DNA of 64,000 bases from Variovorax soli NBRC 106424. Lineage in GTDB: Bacteria > Pseudomonadota > Gammaproteobacteria > Burkholderiales > Burkholderiaceae_C. Positions 6,878 to 51,485 of the stretch are shown in pieces. The notes beneath the pieces were generated by a model. That model had not been told where the DNA came from, did no database searches, and saw only the letters and a program-made list of their open reading frames with translations. The stretch's first letter is position 1; each line of letters opens with the position of its first letter. The stretch covers positions 1 to 64,000 of the forward strand of contig NZ_BCUU01000012.1 in assembly GCF_001591385.1 (NCBI RefSeq). Direction: 5' to 3'. The position numbers were made by a program, and so were the translations under genes.

Positions 6878-7780
6878 TCAGGCCGGAAACACGCCGGTGG
6901 AAAGGTAGCGGTCGCCGCGGTCGCACACCACGAAGACGATGGTCGCGTTCTCCACGGTCTTGGCCACCTGCAGGGCCACCCACAGCGCGCCGGCCGCCGA
7001 AATGCCGGAGAAGATGCCCTCTTCGCGCGCGAGCCGGCGGCACATGTCCTCGGCATGGTCCTGGCTCACGTTGATGGTTTCGTCGACGCGGCTGGGCTCG
7101 TAGATCTTGGGCAGGTATTCCTGCGGCCACTTTCGAATGCCCGGAATTCGCGAGCCTTCGTCGGGCTGTGCGCCCACGATGCGGATCGCCGGGTTCTTTT
7201 CCTTCAGGAAGTGCGACACGCCGGTGATGGTGCCGGTGGTGCCCATGGCGCTCACGAAGTGGGTGATGCGCCCGCCCGTCTGCTCCCACAGCTCCGGGCC
7301 GGTGGTCTCGTAGTGGATGCGCGGGTTGTCGGGGTTGGCGAACTGGTCGAGCACGCGGCCCTTGCCCTGCGCCACCATCTGCTCTGCCAGGTCGCGCGCG
7401 TATTCCATGCCGCCGCTCTTGGGCGTGAGCACCAGTTCGGCACCGAAGGCCTTCATGGTCTGGGCGCGCTCCACCGAGAGGTCTTCCGGCATGATCAGCA
7501 CCATGCGGTAGCCGCGAATGGCCGCCGCCATGGCCAGCGCGATGCCTGTGTTGCCGGAGGTGGCTTCGATGAGCGTGTCGCCGGGCTTGATCTCGCCGCG
7601 CTCTTCCGCACGCTTGATCATGGACAGGGCGGGACGGTCCTTGACCGAGCCCGCGGGGTTGTTGCCTTCCAGCTTGGCCAGGATGACATTGCCGCGCCGG
7701 GCATTGTCCGCCGCCTCGATTCTTTGCAGCGCCACCAGGGGCGTCTTGCCGATGGCGTCTTCGATCGTCGGGTACTTCAT
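6878..7780 (-). CDS. cysM: Cysteine synthase B (O-acetylserine sulfhydrylase), 300 aa
   Basis: PLP enzyme making cysteine from O-acetylserine and sulfide or thiosulfate. The PLP lysine is Lys47 in EGNNPAGSVKDRP, the substrate loop is EATSGNTGIALA, and the PLP-phosphate loop is SAMGTTGTITG. CysM-type features are the 300 residue length and the EGSRIPGIRKWPQEYLP segment, which differs from CysK. The ATG at 7780 matches the family; the frame continues upstream only through the antisense of tRNA-Leu. It heads a leftward cluster with NUDIX, TusA-like and SGNH genes. It is divergent from tRNA-Leu, with 43 bp between the two. Confidence 0.95.
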   Translation of the reverse strand: MKYPTIEDAIGKTPLVALQRIEAADNARRGNVILAKLEGNNPAGSVKDRPALSMIKRAEERGEIKPGDTLIEATSGNTGIALAMAAAIRGYRMVLIMPEDLSVERAQTMKAFGAELVLTPKSGGMEYARDLAEQMVAQGKGRVLDQFANPDNPRIHYETTGPELWEQTGGRITHFVSAMGTTGTITGVSHFLKEKNPAIRIVGAQPDEGSRIPGIRKWPQEYLPKIYEPSRVDETINVSQDHAEDMCRRLAREEGIFSGISAAGALWVALQVAKTVENATIVFVVCDRGDRYLSTGVFPA

Positions 7781-7823
7781 GCCAAGCACTGTGCCATAAT
7801 TTCCGGCTCTCTTCGCTCTCATA

Positions 7824-7908
7824 GCCCGAGTGGTGAAATTGGTAGACGCAGGGGACTCAAAATCCCCCGCCGCAAGGCGTGCCGGTTCGATTCCGGCCTC
7901 GGGCACCA
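7824..7908 (+). tRNA. tRNA-Leu (anticodon CAA)
   Basis: 85 nt including an encoded CCA end. The acceptor stem GCCCGAG pairs with CTCGGGC. The D arm includes GGTGAAATTGGTAGAC and the T arm is GGTTCGATTCC. The anticodon stem GGGGA/TCCCC closes the loop CTCAAAA, giving anticodon CAA (reads UUG). The long variable arm is typical of a class II tRNA. It is encoded in the gap between cysM (leftward) and the epimerase-like gene (leftward). No integrase or att-like duplication is next to it. Confidence 0.97.
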
Positions 7909-7919
7909 GCGCTGCTGGA

Positions 7920-8849
7920 CTATCCCAGGGCTTGCAGCCCCTGCCTGACAGTGGGATAGCGAAGGCGCAGCCGCAACTCGCGCTTCATGCGTGTGTTGTC
8001 CAGCCGCCGGGATTCCCCCATGAAACTCAGCAACTGCAGCGGCAGTTGGCCTTGCGCCTCGTCGCGCGCCAGCCGTGGTGCACGCGCCATGCCGTACAGG
8101 TCGGCCGCCAGGTCGAAGTAGTCGCCCATCAGCAGTTCGCTGTCGTCGCTCACGTGGTAGATGCGTTGCGGGCGGCCGCGCCACAGGGCCAGGACGCAGG
8201 CGCGGGCCAGGTCGTCGGCCTGAATGTGATTGGTGTAGACGTCGTCCTCGCGCCGCAGCACCGGTGTGCCGCGGGCAAGGCGCTCGCGCGGCGTGCCGCC
8301 CTCGCGGTCGGCCGCATAGATGCCGGGAATGCGCAGCACGTGCGCCTTCACGCCCGATCGGCCCAGCCAGCGCACGGCGCGCTCGGCATCCACGCGCCGA
8401 TGGGCGCGCGGCGTGTCCGGCCGCAGGGCACGCGTTTCGTCGATCCGCGCGCCATCGCAGTTTCCGTACACGCCGCTGGTCGACCCGTAGACCAGCGAGC
8501 GGGGGGCGCTGCGGCGCCGCAGCGTCCGCACAAGCGACATGGTGCGCAGATCGCGCCACCAGGGGCCGGATTCCATCCGTGCCGGCGGCGCCAGGTGAAG
8601 GACCCGGTCGGCCATGCCGGCCAGGCGCCGCAGGGTGGCGGGCCGATCCAGGTCGGCCACGATGGGCGTCAGGCCCGCGGCGCGCAATTGCGGGACGCGC
8701 GCAGGCGAAGAAGTCAGCGCCAGCAGGCGCACCCGCCCGGACAGCATCCGGGCCGCGCGGAGACCGACGTCGCCGCAGCCGACGATGAGCACCCGCTCGC
8801 GGCGGAAGCGCGCGGGCAGCGCGCCGAGGGGACTATGGATTGCAGGCAA
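7920..8849 (-). CDS. NAD(P)-dependent epimerase/dehydratase-like protein (extended SDR), 309 aa
   Basis: The N-terminus holds a Rossmann signature VLIVGCGDVGLRAARML, close to the GxxGxxG pattern of atypical SDRs of the YeeZ type. A YGSTSGVYGNCDG segment resembles the catalytic Ser/Tyr region (YGSTSGVYG is typical of YeeZ-like proteins), and HIQADDLARAC matches the C-terminal half of the extended SDR fold. Family members are cytoplasmic nucleotide-sugar or related oxidoreductases, but the substrate of this subgroup is not established. It is divergent from the ferredoxin reductase gene with 32 bp between. The ATG at 8849 is the only sensible start. Confidence 0.85.
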   Translation of the reverse strand: MPAIHSPLGALPARFRRERVLIVGCGDVGLRAARMLSGRVRLLALTSSPARVPQLRAAGLTPIVADLDRPATLRRLAGMADRVLHLAPPARMESGPWWRDLRTMSLVRTLRRRSAPRSLVYGSTSGVYGNCDGARIDETRALRPDTPRAHRRVDAERAVRWLGRSGVKAHVLRIPGIYAADREGGTPRERLARGTPVLRREDDVYTNHIQADDLARACVLALWRGRPQRIYHVSDDSELLMGDYFDLAADLYGMARAPRLARDEAQGQLPLQLLSFMGESRRLDNTRMKRELRLRLRYPTVRQGLQALG

Positions 8850-41748: not shown

Positions 41749-43278
41749 ATGGACGAGATCAATGCCCTGATGTCGGGCTTTGCGGTGGTCATCACTCCCA
41801 TGAACGTCCTGCTGATGTTCGTGGGCATCATCCTGGGCGTACTCATCGGCGTGCTGCCGGGCCTGGGCGGCGCCAACGGCGTGGCCATCCTGCTGCCGCT
41901 GACCTTCACCATGTCGCCGACCTCGGCGATCATCATGCTGTCGTGCATCTACTGGGGCGCCCTCTTCGGCGGCGCCATCACCTCGGTGCTCTTCAACATC
42001 CCGGGCGAGCCGTGGTCGGTGGCCACCACCTTCGACGGCTATCCCATGGCGCAGCAAGGACGCGCGGGCGAGGCGCTCACCAGTGCCTTCACCTCGTCGT
42101 TCATCGGCGCGCTGGTGGCGGTGGTCATGATCACCTTCCTCGCGCCGCTGGTGGCGAAGTTCGCGCTCAAGTTCGGCTCGCCCGAGTTCTTCTCGGTCTA
42201 CCTGCTCACCTTCTGCAGCTTCGTGGGCATGGGCAAGGGCTCGCCCTTCAAGATCCTCGCATCGATGGCGCTGGGCTTCGCCCTGGCGGCCGTCGGCATG
42301 GACACCGTCACCGGCCAGCTGCGCCTGACCTTCGGCCAGCCCGAACTCATGCGCGGCTTCGACTTCCTGATCGCGGTGATCGGCCTGTTCGGCATCGGCG
42401 AAATCCTGCAGTCGATGGAGGAAGGCCTGAGCTTCCAGGGCAAGACGGCCAAGATCGACCCGAAGGTGGTGCTCAAGACCTGGGCCCAGCTGCCCAGGTA
42501 CTGGGTCACCTCGGTGCGCAGCTCGCTGATCGGCATCTGGATGGGCATCACCCCCGGCGGTGCCACGCCGGCGTCGTTCATGAGCTACGGCCTGGCCAAG
42601 AAGATGTCGCGCAACGGCAAGAACTTCGGCCAGGGCGAGATGGAAGGCGTGGTGGCCCCCGAGACCGCCGCGCACGCCGCCGGCACCAGCGCCCTGCTGC
42701 CCATGCTGGCGCTGGGCATTCCAGGCTCGCCCACCGCGGCCGTGCTGCTGGGCGGCCTGCTGATCTGGGGCCTGCAGCCTGGGCCGCTGCTGTTCGTCGA
42801 GCAGAAGGACTTCGTGTGGGGCCTGATCGCCTCCATGTACCTGGGCAACATCGTGGGCCTGATCGTGGTGCTCAGCACGGTGCCGCTGTTCGCATCGATC
42901 CTGCGCATTCCGTTCTCGATCATCGCGCCGGTGATCATCGTGATCTGCGCCATCGGGGCCTACACGGTGCACAACGCGATGCTCGACATCTGGTTCATGC
43001 TGGGCTTCGGCGTGGTCGGCTACCTGTTCAAGAAGCTCGACTATCCGCTCGCGCCGCTGGTGCTGGCCCTGGTGCTGGGCGACAAGGCCGAGGACTCGTT
43101 CCGCCAGGCCATGCTGGTGTCGCAGGGCGACGTGATGATCATGTTCTCCAACCCGCTGGTGGGCAGCATCACGACGCTGGCGCTGCTGATGCTGGTGTGG
43201 CCGCTGCTGGGAAAGCTGCTGGCCCTGGTCAAGGCGCCGAAGGCGGACGAGTTCCATAAGGAGCGGCCGGTGGACTGA
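41749..43278 (+). CDS. tctA: TctA-family large membrane subunit, 509 aa
   Basis: Large permease subunit, about 11-12 hydrophobic segments. Two TctA signature loops are present: LIGVLPGLGGANGVAILLPLTF near residue 30-50 and IGIWMGITPGGATPASFMSYGLAKK in the middle; HAAGTSALLPMLALGIPGSPTAAVLLGG is also conserved. Length is standard (~500). Cotranscribed with tctC/tctB and stopped by the hairpin at 43293-43316. Together the three proteins form a secondary importer driven by an ion gradient. Confidence 0.95.
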   Translation: MDEINALMSGFAVVITPMNVLLMFVGIILGVLIGVLPGLGGANGVAILLPLTFTMSPTSAIIMLSCIYWGALFGGAITSVLFNIPGEPWSVATTFDGYPMAQQGRAGEALTSAFTSSFIGALVAVVMITFLAPLVAKFALKFGSPEFFSVYLLTFCSFVGMGKGSPFKILASMALGFALAAVGMDTVTGQLRLTFGQPELMRGFDFLIAVIGLFGIGEILQSMEEGLSFQGKTAKIDPKVVLKTWAQLPRYWVTSVRSSLIGIWMGITPGGATPASFMSYGLAKKMSRNGKNFGQGEMEGVVAPETAAHAAGTSALLPMLALGIPGSPTAAVLLGGLLIWGLQPGPLLFVEQKDFVWGLIASMYLGNIVGLIVVLSTVPLFASILRIPFSIIAPVIIVICAIGAYTVHNAMLDIWFMLGFGVVGYLFKKLDYPLAPLVLALVLGDKAEDSFRQAMLVSQGDVMIMFSNPLVGSITTLALLMLVWPLLGKLLALVKAPKADEFHKERPVD

Positions 43279-43335: not shown

Positions 43336-43944
43336 TCAGATCTTTCCCTTGGCTCGCAAGCGGCTCAAGGTTTCCGCGGAGAGGTTCAGGTACGACGCGA
43401 GTTCCTTGCGCGGAATGCGGTCGATCAGCTCCGGATGCTTGCGCATGAAGCGATGCACGCGCCCCGGCGCATCCAGCAGGTGCAGCGTGATGGTGTGGGC
43501 CATGATCTCGCTCATGCCCTTCATCACCGCGTACTCGAAATGCTCCTTGGCTTCGGGGTGCCGGTTGAGAAACGCGATCCACTCCTTCAGCGGCAGCGTG
43601 GCCACCCGCGCCTTGGTCACGCACACGATGCCGTAGGGTGTGGGCGTGCCCAAGCGCAGCGCCGCGTAGCTCGTCTCCATCTCGTGCTCGTCTGCAAAGC
43701 GCAGGATCATCTCCTTGCCCTCCGCATTGCTCACCACGCGCTTGAGGATGCCCTCGAGGATGAAGTACTGGGCCATCTCGCGCACGCCCTGGTGCAGCAG
43801 AAAGTCGCCCTTGTTGCCGTCCACCACCACGAGGTGGCTTTCCAGTTCGGTTCGTTCGCTGTCGCTCAGGTCCTTGAGCACCACGTTCTCCCGGAGCTGG
43901 AGACGAATGATGTTTTTCTCCGGGTGGTTTTCCAACAAGGTCAT
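43336..43944 (-). CDS. Crp/Fnr-family regulator of the oxalate locus (predicted), 202 aa
   Basis: An N-terminal beta-barrel effector domain (residues ~20-120; GDFLLHQGVREMAQYFILEGILKR) is followed by a C-terminal helix-turn-helix (IPRKELASYLNLSAETLSRLRAKGKI). The recognition helix has Glu191, Ser194 and Arg195, the same Glu/Ser/Arg trio that FNR uses to read TTGA half-sites. The FNR N-terminal cysteine cluster is absent, so it does not carry a [4Fe-4S] oxygen sensor; its ligand is unknown. The ATG at 43944 is used. It is divergent from oxc, with a TTGAT-N4-GTCAA palindrome centred between them, which suggests autoregulation and control of oxc and tctCBA. Confidence 0.88.
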   Translation of the reverse strand: MTLLENHPEKNIIRLQLRENVVLKDLSDSERTELESHLVVVDGNKGDFLLHQGVREMAQYFILEGILKRVVSNAEGKEMILRFADEHEMETSYAALRLGTPTPYGIVCVTKARVATLPLKEWIAFLNRHPEAKEHFEYAVMKGMSEIMAHTITLHLLDAPGRVHRFMRKHPELIDRIPRKELASYLNLSAETLSRLRAKGKI

Positions 43945-44007
43945 GGGGTGTTTTCTTCGCTTCGCCTGTCGCCGCAACGCTGCTTGCCGGCGTCCTTTTT
44001 TGGAAAG

Positions 44008-44083: not shown

Positions 44084-45868
44084 ATGTCTTCAGTCACCAC
44101 CGACAAGCAGGCAGCGGCGCTGGATCCAGCGATTGCGCGTGCCATCAAGAGCATCGCCGACGAGACGCCGGAGCAAGAAACCACCGACGGTTTCCACCTG
44201 GTGATCGATGCACTCAAGCTCAACGGCATCGACACCATCTTCGGCCTGCCGGGCATTCCGATCACCGACCTGACCCGCATGGCCCAGGCCGAGGGCATGC
44301 GCGTGATCTCCTTCCGCCACGAGCAGCACGCGGGCAACGCCGCCGCCGCGGCCGGCTTCCTGACGCAAAAGCCCGGCATCTGCCTGACGGTGTCGGCACC
44401 CGGCTTCCTCAACGGCCTGACGGCGCTGGCCAATGCCACCACCAACTGCTTCCCGATGATCCTGATCAGCGGCTCTTCGGAGCGCGAGATCGTCGACCTG
44501 CAGCAAGGCGACTACGAGGAGATGGACCAGCTGGCCATCGCCAAGCCGCTGTGCAAGGCCGCCTTCCGCGTGCTGCATGCGCAGGACATCGGCGTGGGCA
44601 TCGCACGCGCCATCCGCGCCGCGCTGTCGGGCCGCCCCGGCGGCGTGTACCTGGACCTGCCGGCCAAGCTGTTCTCGCAGACCATGGAAGCGAAGGCCGG
44701 CAAGGCATCGCTGATCAAGGTGGTCGATCCGGCACCGCGCCAGATCCCCTCGGCCGAATCGGTCAAGCGCGCACTGGACCTGCTCAAGGGCGCCAAGCGT
44801 CCCCTGATCCTGCTGGGCAAGGGCGCTGCATACGCGCAGGCCGACGCCGACATCCGCGCCCTGGTCGAGAAGACCGGCATCCCCTACCTGCCCATGTCGA
44901 TGGCCAAGGGCCTGCTGCCCGACACGCATGAGCAGTCGGCGGCCGCCGCACGCTCGTACGTGCTGCAGGAAGCCGACGTGGTGCTGCTGGTGGGCGCGCG
45001 CCTGAACTGGCTGCTCTCGCACGGCAAGGGCAAGACCTGGGGCGCCGAGAAGGGTCCGAAGAAGTTCATCCAGATCGACATCGCCCCCACCGAGATCGAC
45101 AGCAACGTGGCCATCGAGGCCCCGGTGATCGGCGACATCGGCTCCTGCGTCTCGGCCCTCGTGGCGGGCCTGGGCAGCAACTGGGCCAAGCCGCCGGCCG
45201 AATGGACCGGCGCCATCGCCGAGCGCAAGGACAAGAACCTGTCGAAGATGGCCCAGACGCTGGCTGCGCGTCCGTCGCCGATGAACTTCCACAGCGCGCT
45301 GTCGGTGATCCGCGAGCAGGTGCGCCAGCGCCCGGACGCGATCTTCGTCAACGAAGGCGCCAACACGCTGGACTTCGCCCGCTCCATCGTCGACATGTAC
45401 GAGCCGCGCAAGCGCCTGGACGTGGGCACCTGGGGGATCATGGGCATCGGCATGGGCTTCTCCGTGGCCGCCGCAGTGATCACGGGCAAGCCGGTGATCG
45501 CGGTCGAGGGCGACAGCGCGTTCGGCTTCTCGGGCATGGAGGTGGAAACCATCTGCCGCTACAACCTGCCGGTGTGCGTGATCGTGTTCAACAACAACGG
45601 CGTGTACCGCGGCACCGACGTGAACCCCAGCGGCACGCCTGACGTGGCGCCCACCGTGTTCGTGAAGAACGCACGCTACGACAAGCTGATGGAAGCCTTC
45701 GGCGGCGTGGGCGTGCATGCCACCACCGCCGACGAACTGCAGAAGGCGCTGGCCGAAGCCGTCGCCTCCGGCCGCCCCACCCTCATCAACGCAGTCATCG
45801 ACGAGACCGCCGGCACCGAAAGCGGTCGCATCACCAGTCTCAACCCGGCCACGGCCAAGAAGAAGTAA
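44084..45868 (+). CDS. oxc: Oxalyl-CoA decarboxylase, 594 aa
   Basis: Thiamine-diphosphate enzyme converting oxalyl-CoA to formyl-CoA and CO2. The three ThDP-fold domains are present: [33 protein letters not shown] at the start (catalytic Glu in [13 protein letters not shown]), the central domain, and the ThDP/Mg motif [22 protein letters not shown]...NNNG with Asp477. The segment [20 protein letters not shown] is diagnostic for oxalyl-CoA decarboxylase versus acetolactate synthase. About 30 extra N-terminal residues precede the fold compared with Oxalobacter Oxc. An AGAAGGAGA site precedes the ATG. Followed by frc after 27 bp. Confidence 0.97.
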
Positions 45869-45895: not shown

Positions 45896-47167
45896 ATGAG
45901 CAACAAACCTCTCGACGGCATCAAGATCATCGACTTCACGCACGTGCAGGCCGGCCCGGCCTGTACCCAGATGCTGGCCTGGTTCGGCGCCGACGTGATC
46001 AAGGTCGAGCGCCCCGGCGCCGGCGACGTCACGCGCTCGCAGCTGCGCGACATTCCCAACGTGGACGCGCTGTACTTCACCATGCTCAACAGCAACAAGC
46101 GCTCCATCACGCTGGACACCAAGACGGCCGAAGGCAAGGCCGTGCTGGAGAAGCTGGTGAAGGAATCGGACGTGCTGGTGGAGAACTTCGGCCCCGGCGC
46201 ACTCGACCGCATGGGCTTCTCGTGGGCCCGCATCCAGGAGCTGAACCCGCGCCTGATCCACGCATCGGTCAAGGGCTTCTCCGAAGGCCACCACTACGAA
46301 GACCTGAAGGTCTACGAGAACGTGGCGCAGTGTGCCGGCGGCGCAGCCTCGACCACCGGCTGGTGGAAGGGCGAGAACTCCGAGCCCACCATCTCGGCTG
46401 CAGCCCTCGGCGACTCCAACACCGGCATGCACCTGGCCATCGGCATCCTGACGGCCATCATCGGCCGCGAGAAGACCGGCAAGGGCCAGAAGGTGGCCTG
46501 CTCCATGCAGGACGCCGTGCTGAACCTGTGCCGCGTGAAGATGCGCGACCAGCAGCGCCTGGAGCGCGTGGGCTACCTCGAGGAGTACCCCCAGTACCCG
46601 CACGAGATGGAAGCCTTCGCCAGCAAGGTCACGCCGCGCGGCGGCAATGCCGGCGGCGGCGGCCAGCCGGGCTGGATCCTGAAGTGCAAGGGCTGGGAGA
46701 CCGACCCCAACGCCTACATCTACTTCACGGTGCAAGGCCACGCCTGGGAACCCATCTGCGACGCGCTGGGCAAGCCCGAGTGGAAGACCGACCCGGACTA
46801 CACCACGGCCAAGGCACGCCAGCCGCACATCGAGCAGATCTTCGCCACCATCGAGGATTTCATCAAGGACAAGACCAAGTTCGAGGCGGTGGACATCTTC
46901 CGCAAGTACGACATTCCCTGCGCCCCGGTGCTGTCGATGGCCGAGCTGCTGCGCGACGAGTCGCTGCGCAAGAGCGGCTCGATCGTCGAAGTGCAGCACA
47001 AGGAGCGCGGCAGCTACTTCACGATCGGCAGCCCGATCAAGTTCTCGGATCTCAAGCCCGAGATCACCGCTTCGCCCCTGCTGGGCGAGCACACCGACGA
47101 AGTGCTGGCCGAACTGGGCTACAGCAAGGACCAGATCGCCAAGATGCACGAGAGCAAGGTCGTCTGA
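45896..47167 (+). CDS. frc: Formyl-CoA:oxalate CoA-transferase, 423 aa
   Basis: Class III CoA-transferase moving CoA from formyl-CoA to oxalate, which regenerates the Oxc substrate. It begins [37 protein letters not shown]. The nucleophilic aspartate is Asp173 in [15 protein letters not shown], equivalent to Asp169 of the Oxalobacter enzyme, and the glycine loop [12 protein letters not shown] is present. Length is typical (~428). The GGAG site precedes the ATG. It is the direct partner of oxc. A GC-rich inverted repeat and a PAS gene follow. Confidence 0.96.
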
Positions 47168-47171
47168 CCTG

Positions 47172-47217
47172 AACCCGCCGGGCCCCCGGCGGCCCGGCAG
47201 GGCCGGCCGCGCGGGTT
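47172..47217 (+). other. GC-rich inverted repeat between frc and the PAS gene
   Basis: AACCCGC (47172-47178) pairs with GCGGGTT (47211-47217) around a very GC-rich interior (CCGGGCCCCCGG, GGGCCGGCC); the palindrome GGGTTAACCC overlaps the right arm. It has no T run. It may attenuate or process the oxc-frc transcript ahead of the second gene pair. Confidence 0.5.
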
Positions 47218-47312
47218 AACCCGAGAGGGACTTGCGGTGAAATGTGGCCGGTGGCGCGAGGGCGGCGAGCTTTCGTGCGCACCGGCCTTTCTTTTGCCCC
47301 ACGGAGACAGAC

Positions 47313-47789
47313 ATGAGCGACACGAACGACAACAACAAGACGAATGCCCCGGCCATCGACCTCGGGCAACTGGTGGAGGGTGCAGGCGACGGGATCTGCG
47401 TGTGCGATGCGCGCGGCAACATCATCCTGTGGAACGCGGCCTGCGAACGCATCTTTGGTTTCTCGCGCGAAGAGGCCATGGGCCGCTCGCTCGATCTCAT
47501 CATTCCCGAGCGGCAGCGCCAGCGCCACTGGGACGGATATGAAAAGACGATGGAAACGGGCATCACCCGCTACGGCACCACCTTGCTGAAGGTACCGTCG
47601 TTGCACAAGGACGGGCACACCATTTCCATCGCATTCACCGTGTCGCTGCTCAAGGGCAGCGACGGCAAGGTCAACGCCATCGTCGCCATGGTTCGCGACG
47701 AAACCGAGCGCTTCCAGGAGGAGCGCAAGCTGCGGGCCCGGCTCGCAGAGGCTGAACGGATGATCAATTCCACAGGAGATGCTCGATGA
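47313..47789 (+). CDS. Stand-alone PAS-domain protein in oxalate operon, 158 aa
   Basis: One PAS fold fills the protein: [64 protein letters not shown], then the PAC-like strand region ([37 protein letters not shown]) and a ~25 residue charged coiled coil. No kinase, cyclase or DNA-binding output is present. The ATG at 47313 follows ACGGAGAC. Its TGA overlaps the ATG of the second CoA-transferase (ATGA, 47786-47789), so the two are made together. It may sense redox state or a ligand and act through protein contact, for example on the transferase; this is inference. Confidence 0.9.
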
Positions 47790-49033
47790 GCAAGGCTTTG
47801 GAGGGTGTTCGCATCCTCGATTTCACGCACGTCCAGTCCGGACCGACCTGCACGCAACTGCTGGCCTGGTTCGGCGCCGATGTGATCAAGGTGGAACGCG
47901 CCGGTGAGGGCGACGCCACCCGCAGCCAACTGCGGGACATACCCGGCGTGGACAGCCTCTACTTCACCATGCTCAACCACAACAAGCGGTCCATCACGCT
48001 GGACACCAAGAAGCCCGAAGGGCGCAAGGTGCTGGACCGCCTGATCAAGACCTGCGACGTGCTGGTCGAGAATTTCGCGCCCGGCGCGCTCGACCGCATG
48101 GGCATCACGTGGGAACACATCCACGAGCTCAACCCGCGCATGATCGTGGCCTCGGTCAAGGGCTTCGGCCCGGGCAAGTACGAGGACTGCAAGGTCTACG
48201 AGAACGTGGCGCAGTGCGCCGGCGGCGCGGCGTCGACCACCGGCATGGAAGACGGCATTCCGATGGTGACCGGCGCGCAGATCGGCGACAGCGGCACCGG
48301 CCTGCACCTGGCGCTGGGCATCGTCGCGGCGCTGTACCAGCGCACCATGACCAACCGCGGCCAGAAGGTGCTCGCGCCCATGCAGGACGCGGTGCTCAAC
48401 CTGTGCCGCGTGAAGCTGCGCGACCAGCAGCGCCTGGACCGCACCGGCACCATGCACGAGTACCCGCAATATCCCGACGGCAAGTTCGGCGACGCGGTAC
48501 CGCGCGCCGGCAATGCATCGGGCGGCGGCCAGCCGGGCTCCATCCTCAAGTGCAAGGGCTGGGAGACCGACCCCAACGCCTACATCTACTTCATCACCCA
48601 GGGGGCCGCCTGGCCCGCCATCTGCCGAGTGATCGGCGAGGAAGGCTGGATCGAGGACGAGGCCTACGCCACGCCGCAGGCCCGCCTGCTGCACCTCAAG
48701 CCCATCTTCAAGCGCATCGAGCAGTGGACCATGACCAAGACCAAGTTCGAGGCCATGGACATCCTCAACCAATACGACATTCCCTGCGGGCCGATCCTGT
48801 CGATGAAGGAGATTGCCGAAGACGAATCGCTGCGCGCCACCGGCACGCTGGTGGAGGTGGACCACCCCACCCGCGGCAAGTACCTGACGGTGGGCAATCC
48901 GATCAAGCTGAGCGACAGCCCGACCGAGGTGACCCGCTCGCCCCTGCTGGGCGAGCACACCGACGAGGTGCTGGGCCAGCTGGGCTACAGCGCCGACGAA
49001 GTCGCGGCGCTGCGCGAACTCAAAGTGGTCTGA
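47786..49033 (+). CDS. Second class III CoA-transferase, formyl-CoA:oxalate type, 415 aa
   Basis: A clear paralogue of the preceding frc product: [46 protein letters not shown], nucleophile Asp168 in [15 protein letters not shown], and the glycine loop [24 protein letters not shown]. It could be a second Frc isoenzyme or use another CoA donor/acceptor pair (such as succinyl-CoA or acetyl-CoA with oxalate, as in E. coli-type YfdW/YfdE diversification). Translationally coupled to the PAS gene by a 4-bp overlap. A two-tier hairpin follows its stop. Confidence 0.92.
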
Positions 49034-50449: not shown

Positions 50450-50474
50450 TTTCAAAACTCCCGGGAAGACTCTC

Positions 50475-51485
50475 ATGAAGATTGCAGTGATCGGCGCCGG
50501 CGCCATCGGCGGCCTGGTGGGCGCAAAGCTCGCCCTGGCTGGCGAGGACGTCACTTTCATCGTCCGCGGCAAGAACCTGGAAACCATACGCGCCAACGGC
50601 TTCAAGCTGATCAGCGCCGAAGGCCAGGAAGAAGTCGCGCGGCAGGTCAAGGCCACCGACCGCTATGAAGAAGCGGGTCCGCAGGACGTGGTGATCCTGG
50701 CCATGAAGGCCCACCAGCTGGAGGCGGTGCTCAAGGACCTGCCCCGGCTCTTCGGCCCCGATACGGTGGTGGTCACCATGCAGAACGGCATTCCCTTCTG
50801 GTACTTCCAGAAGCATGGCGGCACGCTGGAAGGCCACACGGTGCGCAGCGTCGACCCCGACGGCGCCGTGGCGGCGGGCATCCCGGCCTCGCGCATCCTC
50901 GGCTGCGTGGTCTACCCCGCGTCCGAACTGGTGGCGCCGGGCGTGGTGCAGCACATCGAGGGCGAGCGCTTCCCGCTGGGCGAACTCGACGGCAGCACGA
51001 CCGAGCGCGTCCAGCGCGTGGCCGATGCGCTGACCCGCGCCGGCTTCAAGTCGCCGGTGCTGGACAACATCCGCGCCGAGATCTGGCTCAAGCTGTGGGG
51101 CAACCTGACCTTCAACCCGATCAGCGCGCTGTCGCATGCCACGCTGGTGGACATCTGCCAGTACCCGCTGTCGCGCGAACTGGCCGCCAACATGATGCGC
51201 GAGGCGCAGACGGCCGCCAACAAGCTGGGCATCGAGTTCCGCGTGCCGCTGGAAAAACGCATTGCCGGCGCCGAGAAGGTGGGCAAGCACAAGACATCGA
51301 TGCTTCAGGACGTCGAAGCCGGCCGCGCCCCCGAGATCGATGCGCTGGTGGGTTCGGTGGCCGAGCTGGCACGGCTGACCGAAACGCCCACGCCGCACAT
51401 CGACACGGTGTATGCACTCGTGAAGCTGCTGGCACGCGGCATGGAAGAAGCCGGCGCCGGTGTGCGCATGCAGTCTGCGGGCTGA
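50475..51485 (+). CDS. 2-dehydropantoate 2-reductase-family (ApbA/PanE) oxidoreductase, 336 aa
   Basis: NADPH-dependent ketoacid reductase fold. The N-terminal Rossmann motif is MKIAVIGAGAIGGLVGAKLALAGEDVTFIVRG, followed by VILAMKAHQLEAVL, QNGIPFWYF and the C-terminal helical domain with KLWGNLTFNPISAL (catalytic Lys/Asn region). True PanE makes pantoate; many paralogues in catabolic operons reduce other 2-oxo acids. Position behind an FAH-family gene favours a catabolic role. It is the last gene of the operon and is stopped by the hairpin at 51542-51569. Confidence 0.9.
   Translation: MKIAVIGAGAIGGLVGAKLALAGEDVTFIVRGKNLETIRANGFKLISAEGQEEVARQVKATDRYEEAGPQDVVILAMKAHQLEAVLKDLPRLFGPDTVVVTMQNGIPFWYFQKHGGTLEGHTVRSVDPDGAVAAGIPASRILGCVVYPASELVAPGVVQHIEGERFPLGELDGSTTERVQRVADALTRAGFKSPVLDNIRAEIWLKLWGNLTFNPISALSHATLVDICQYPLSRELAANMMREAQTAANKLGIEFRVPLEKRIAGAEKVGKHKTSMLQDVEAGRAPEIDALVGSVAELARLTETPTPHIDTVYALVKLLARGMEEAGAGVRMQSAG

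Follow-up and report, generated by a model that had tools for sequence, protein, structure and literature searches.

A single-domain PAS protein linked to an FRC1-type formyl-CoA transferase in oxalate operons, with a putative heme-type pocket

The window analysed here, a stretch of 64,000 nucleotides from Variovorax soli NBRC 106424, contains a gene for a stand-alone PAS domain protein whose stop codon overlaps the start of a CoA-transferase gene. This arrangement raises the question of what a sensor-type domain without an output domain does in a metabolic operon and to which of its neighbours it is linked. In an earlier note made from the DNA letters, strict coupling to the overlapped transferase was taken to suggest equal amounts of the two proteins and possibly a complex, in which a redox change or a ligand might gate the enzyme.

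The PAS gene in its oxalate operon

The features of the locus are as follows.

41749..43278, plus strand: TctA-type transporter subunit, upstream of the cluster (PF01970, 510.1 bits)
43336..43977, minus strand: CRP/FNR-type regulator, divergent from oxc (PF00027, 36.8 bits)
44084..45868, plus strand: oxc, oxalyl-CoA decarboxylase (TIGR03254, 1000.2 bits against a cut-off of 739.4)
45896..47167, plus strand: FRC1-type formyl-CoA:oxalate CoA-transferase, the conserved PAS neighbour (TIGR03253, 717.6 bits against a cut-off of 504.2)
47313..47789, plus strand: single-domain PAS protein of 158 residues (open frame and PAS models), with His72 at the heme-ligand position of FixL and DosP and a C-terminal helix
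47786..47789, plus strand: ATGA in which the stop codon of PAS and the start codon of frc2 overlap (sequence and spacing table), seen in part of the genus of the window
47786..49033, plus strand: FRC2-type formyl-CoA transferase, optional in PAS loci (TIGR03253, 714.9 bits against a cut-off of 504.2)
50472..51485, plus strand: ketopantoate-reductase-like protein (PF02558 and PF08546; NF005089, 470.7 bits against a cut-off of 223)

The gene order in this region is TctA transporter, divergent CRP-type regulator, oxc, frc1, PAS, frc2, a small unmatched ORF, a FAH-family enzyme and the ketopantoate-reductase-like gene. Both transferases, which are 64% identical to each other, lie above the curated TIGR03253 cut-off and are predicted to be formyl-CoA:oxalate CoA-transferases, and the ketopantoate-reductase-like protein is possibly an oxalyl-CoA reductase. 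The frc1 gene ends 145 nt upstream of the PAS gene; the intervening segment (47168-47312) is G+C-rich and gives a folding energy of -81 kcal/mol over its 145 nt, a raw value without a shuffled baseline.

The PAS reading frame proves to be a real gene, as had been supposed. The frame is open, and the product scores 56.4 bits with PF00989 against a cut-off of 22.6 and 78.6 bits with TIGR00229 against a cut-off of 22.9, the latter being the sole NCBIfam model above its cut-off; the Pfam matches to the 158-residue protein are PAS families only. A chance ORF is further argued against by conservation of the protein in 109 distinct rows of the family alignment, 76 of which are adjacent to a formyl-CoA transferase (FRC) gene and 33 of which are not. 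The AlphaFold model (mean pLDDT 90.2) consists of a PAS core and a single long C-terminal helix spanning residues 131-155, after which the ORF stops, and a covalent output domain is thus absent.

Which transferase accompanies the PAS gene

The ATGA common to the PAS stop and the frc2 start is present in the window, and its persistence can be read from the spacing of the two genes in related genomes. Among the 22 PAS-bearing genomes of the same genus, the gap is -4 nt in eight and -1 nt in six, and in the remaining eight it ranges from +2 to +34 nt (+2 or +3, +10, +15 or +16, and +34, in two genomes each). Rows outside the genus in which frc2 lies next downstream of PAS show gaps of 56 to 182 nt, and no row known to lie outside the genus carries the overlap; two metagenome assemblies of unstated genus (L033 and L034), with PAS proteins 99% and 96% identical to that of the window, have a 4-nt overlap with frc2. 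The strict coupling proposed previously is therefore found in 14 of the 22 genomes of the genus but not as a general feature, and translational coupling with FRC2 as a conserved property is ruled out by the spacing table. Given this difference in spacing within and outside the genus, the overlap looks like a late, local tightening. If anything, it suggests balanced amounts of PAS and FRC2 within the genus, which a contact with FRC1 would not explain.

The co-occurrence of PAS with the oxalate genes is pronounced in the same genus. Of its 37 sampled genomes, the window genome included, PAS (E <= 1e-50) is present in all 22 with oxc (E <= 1e-150) and in none of the 15 without it, two of the latter being only 62% and 73% complete. 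Among the 24 genomes of other genera in the sample, oxc occurs in six and PAS in two, namely G038, which has both, and G043, in which PAS is accompanied by no oxc at E <= 1e-150. Five of these 24 genomes (G041, G044, G046, G048 and G058) carry oxc without PAS, and the transferases of G041, G046, G048 and G058 share only 46-56% identity with the window pair.

A survey of 398 genomes of the phylum reveals which transferase the PAS gene follows. A PAS match is present at E <= 1e-25 in 26 genomes and at E <= 1e-49 in 17, and a TIGR03253 transferase (counted at E <= 1e-150, with the best four candidates per genome scored) is present in 32. All 17 genomes with a close PAS match fall among these 32 and none among the other 366, and in each of the 17 an FRC1-type gene lies no more than 160 nt from PAS; in the nine genomes whose PAS match is weaker (loci L108-L117), no frc is found within 1.5 kb of PAS. 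When the transferases are typed by their better score to the FRC1 or the FRC2 of the window, an FRC1-type gene is present in 19 of the 32 genomes, with PAS adjacent, no more than 155 nt away, in 17, and none of the 13 FRC2-only genomes has a PAS match beside FRC2. Fisher's exact p for this comparison is 3e-7, which is a rough guide only because the genomes are related and kinship inflates co-occurrence. FRC1-type genes without an adjacent PAS gene are found in G209, which has frc1-frc2 only, and in G151; additionally, the E. coli frc product is 68% identical to FRC1 and has no PAS gene beside it.

In the family alignment, an FRC1-type gene directly adjoins PAS, at no more than 219 nt, in 76 of the 76 FRC-adjacent distinct rows, and the adjacency persists in both possible orders. 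FRC1 precedes PAS in Hyphomicrobium and in the rows from betaproteobacteria and follows it in Azospirillum, Methylobacterium and Methylopila, and records with the pair include those of Cupriavidus, Azospirillum and Methylobacterium; an FRC2 gene downstream of PAS is optional. The conserved partner of PAS is FRC1 and not the overlapped FRC2 that the earlier note had singled out. The broader part of that proposal, the association of an output-less PAS domain with a class III CoA-transferase, withstands the comparison, since the link is kept in both alpha- and betaproteobacteria.

OXC was considered as the main link to PAS and rejected. Of 14 Azospirillum loci, some of which end at contig ends, only L037 has an oxc homolog of at least 60% identity, and G043 keeps FRC1-PAS-FRC2 without oxc at the limit used. 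In the G043 locus, an acetolactate-synthase-like TPP enzyme (L136:5103-6869) stands in the place of oxc, between the CRP-type gene and frc1, and is 26% identical to OXC, with 229 bits against the oxc cut-off of 739. No PAS-FRC fusion is seen among the loci compared; the long frames that at first suggested a Rosetta-stone fusion are mere open frames in G+C-rich DNA. In members of the order without PAS, a methionyl-tRNA-formyltransferase-like gene follows frc (L129:8450-9382 and L173-L176; two were scanned and the others judged by eye), and its product may use formyl-CoA or formyl-tetrahydrofolate.

Fold and pocket of the PAS protein

The nearest solved proteins, by single sequence and by profile, are the heme PAS proteins DosP and FixL, with DosP as the best PDB profile match (E 1.7e-19). 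A Foldseek search with the model places heme PAS structures (FixL, DosP and FG214) at ranks 1 to 28, and the first 13 rows of a VIA structural alignment are likewise heme PAS chains (Z 15.9-16.8), FixL aligning over 117 residues with an rmsd of 2.0 and a Z of 16.8. However, two PAS chains not titled heme proteins (5iu1, Z 15.9, and 3lyx, Z 15.6) tie within one to two Z units, so VIA cannot tell heme PAS from some other PAS folds.

His72, which lies in helix 66-82 of the model, aligns with the heme histidine of both proteins (His200 in FixL and His77 in DosP) and is at the same distance from a conserved proline. All 109 distinct family rows have it, including the relatives outside oxalate loci, although they were collected with a query that itself carries the histidine, which biases them toward its conservation. 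In the genome of the window itself, 17 PAS places were found; where the others can be aligned here, histidine occurs only in L156, with Asp, Gly, Pro or a gap elsewhere. Two PAS matches of this genome at 27% identity, left out of the alignment, have Asp at this position.

The distal side of the pocket differs from that of FixL and DosP. The column of the distal arginine (R220 in FixL, R97 in DosP), a residue that stabilises bound O2, is occupied by Leu92 in 76 of 76 FRC-linked rows and in 26 of 33 others, and Tyr87 nearby is found in 76 of 76 and 27 of 33, respectively. A plain FixL-like O2 sensor was rejected on this basis. The alignment suggests that a heme pocket here would not be FixL-like in its choice of ligand, and NO, CO or redox sensing would suit Leu92 and Tyr87 better than O2 sensing in the manner of FixL. 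The FRC-linked rows also differ from the others at position 107 (Ala in 97% versus Glu in 73%), at position 110 (Val versus mostly Ile) and at position 130 (Glu versus mostly Val), which may reflect a specialised pocket or surface. No conserved cysteine is present among the invariant or near-invariant columns of a 35-row alignment (A1).

Relatives, possible roles and known systems

Outside the oxalate loci, relatives of the PAS protein are often found among nitric-oxide, nitrate or iron-protein genes. On a Pelobacter plasmid (L087:5995-6432), the relative is flanked by the genes for hydroxylamine reductase (hcp) and for Ric, an iron-sulfur repair protein, with flavorubredoxin following. A hemerythrin-domain gene is next downstream at L126:5501-5989 and L127:4466-5017, with a 4-nt overlap in L127, and nitrate reductase and NapC-type genes are near the Anaeromyxobacter relative. 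In Filomicrobium, the relative accompanies an Rrf2 regulator and a formyl-tetrahydrofolate cyclo-ligase, the same pair being annotated in Alloyangia. Polynucleobacter and a related assembly (L068, L070 and L071, approximately 7460-8800) carry a second relative before a CbiX-type chelatase gene; a Pfam scan of L068 also finds cyanase, a tetrapyrrole methylase and an NMT1-like protein, and L070 and L071 were judged by eye. Truncated hemoglobins suspected by eye beside PAS in L078 and L079 were discarded, as no Pfam or NCBIfam model matched. Less fitting contexts are metB in L079 and in Skermanella and three loci of genus g127 without a clear theme. Another such context is a Nevskiaceae locus (L059:7446-8420), in which a relative 63% identical to the window protein follows a cytidylyltransferase-like gene (CoaD-like by eye), with no frc in 16 kb.

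A further group of relatives is fused to an enzyme. The PAS domain stands behind the reductase half of the NO-inducible flavohemoprotein model, with the globin absent, which accounts for a score of 242.6 bits against the whole-protein cut-off of 432. This fusion is present in 9 of 80 genomes and 5 of 47 genera in the family of G151; its loci include L123:4147-5430 (plus strand) and L178-L183. His72, Tyr87 and Leu92 are kept in each of the six fusion loci examined, and NnrS, a globin, an Rrf2 regulator and an ANTAR regulator are neighbours in one of four loci each. The fusion is possibly a PAS-based NO enzyme or sensor, and the joining of PAS to a reductase of a heme-reducing type is the best indirect support for heme.

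Taken with the linkage to FRC1, these data lead us to favour, tentatively, a free-standing heme-type sensor that modulates FRC1 by contact. His72 on helix F would most likely hold the heme, and the protein would probably dimerise through its C-terminal helix. NO, CO or a redox change may act as the signal and shift this helix, and PAS would then modulate FRC1 by direct contact, with control presumably running in that direction, and oxalate breakdown could thereby be adjusted, at its first step, to the cell's respiratory or nitrosative state. Contact with FRC1 is favoured because FRC1 is the constant neighbour while the regulator changes and oxc can be missing. Against this reading stand the FRC1-type enzymes without PAS (in E. 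coli, G209 and G151) and the 33 of 109 rows that are not FRC-adjacent.

The linkage to FRC1 is strong whatever the cofactor, and a PAS protein that is tied to FRC1 but free of heme, sensing a ligand such as oxalate or an acyl-CoA or acting as an apo scaffold or chaperone, is possible although rather unlikely. The loss of the distal arginine, the differences at positions 107, 110 and 130, and the near-ties in the VIA ranking would all fit such a protein, but the invariance of His72, the scarcity of histidine at this column elsewhere in the same genome, and the NO-related contexts and reductase fusion of the relatives speak for heme. PAS domains usually feed signalling proteins, and it is conceivable, if unlikely, that this one is a trans-acting input for a CRP/FNR-type regulator, a chemoreceptor or an orphan kinase and controls transcription or taxis on oxalate instead of the enzyme. 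In the tblastn map of the loci, 21 have an oxc homolog of at least 60% identity, and 18 of these also carry a CRP/FNR-type homolog; a chemoreceptor gene adjoins PAS in Azospirillum argentinense and Geomonas. However, the regulator differs between lineages, being CRP-type in many betaproteobacteria and GntR-like, below the model cut-offs, in Hyphomicrobium and G389; the Azospirillum loci have no CRP-type match, one of them having soxR and iclR genes further on. Such variation contrasts with the presence of FRC1 in every FRC-adjacent row.

It is improbable that the PAS gene rides along in the oxalate operon while its product serves in general stress, its adjacency inherited and not functional. 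The frc genes of G209 and E. coli manage without it, and in three genomes of genus g127 (G258, G275 and G344) the relatives lie on a different contig from frc or at a distance from it; nevertheless, the adjacency to FRC1 outlasts both gene orders and different surroundings. On the PAS tree the FRC label changes twice, compared with 28.7 times in shuffles, a comparison limited by the few columns of the tree and by near copies clustering regardless. The least probable of the readings considered makes PAS a heme sensor or scavenger of CO (or NO) that guards the formyl-CoA step. FRC chemistry proceeds via a formyl-enzyme anhydride. A loss of CO from formyl-CoA has been proposed for HypX, a proposal for which the authors state that direct experimental results are not yet available (PMC6802093). 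Together these make a CO leak from formyl-CoA conceivable, and leaked CO might signal formyl-CoA overload to FRC1 or be trapped before it harms respiratory oxidases. A CO source downstream of oxc is argued against by G043, which keeps PAS although it has no oxc at E <= 1e-150. If such a guard exists, it would form a gas-feedback loop on a CoA-transferase, with a heme PAS acting without a classical output domain.

Under the preferred reading of a heme-type sensor in contact with FRC1, oxalate operons would have, in the PAS protein, an accessory protein dedicated to one of their two types of formyl-CoA transferase. The linkage of the PAS protein to FRC1 suggests an undescribed tuning of oxalate breakdown in which its sensor role is putative. 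The relatives also point to a larger family of heme-type PAS proteins without an output domain that would extend into NO and nitrate operons and include a natural fusion of PAS to a flavohemoprotein-type reductase half without the globin. Term searches of open-access papers gave no description of a PAS partner of a formyl-CoA transferase among the papers listed, subscription journals lying mostly outside the search.

A comparison with known systems places the PAS protein close to FixL, the rhizobial O2 sensor kinase, with which it shares the PAS fold and the spacing from proline to the heme histidine and which ranks first or nearly so in the sequence and fold comparisons. FixL has a kinase and, in Bradyrhizobium, the distal arginine R220, whereas the PAS protein has Leu at this position and is linked to a metabolic enzyme. 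DosP, a heme-PAS c-di-GMP phosphodiesterase of E. coli and the best profile match, likewise has a histidine at the heme-ligand position but differs in its phosphodiesterase part and in Arg97, which is Leu in the window protein. The short LOV proteins PpSB1-LOV and W619_1, which are among the Foldseek and VIA matches, are also small, PAS-class, equipped with terminal helices and without an output domain. Such proteins are flavin photoreceptors with a conserved, photoactive cysteine, which the 35 rows of the window family lack. RcoM is likened to the PAS protein by function and not by sequence, as a model of a CO-sensing PAS heme; it differs as a CO-responsive heme-PAS transcription factor with a LytTR DNA-binding domain and a His/Met-ligated heme (PMC9670170). 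The two transferases of the window, which exceed the TIGR03253 cut-off, compare with E. coli YfdW, the closest solved relative of both, and Oxalobacter FRC; in the E. coli cluster, frc lies beside oxc and near yfdE and is not adjoined by a PAS gene. What is already known from these systems is the PAS fold and the probable cofactor class, and what is new is the output-less, enzyme-linked form.
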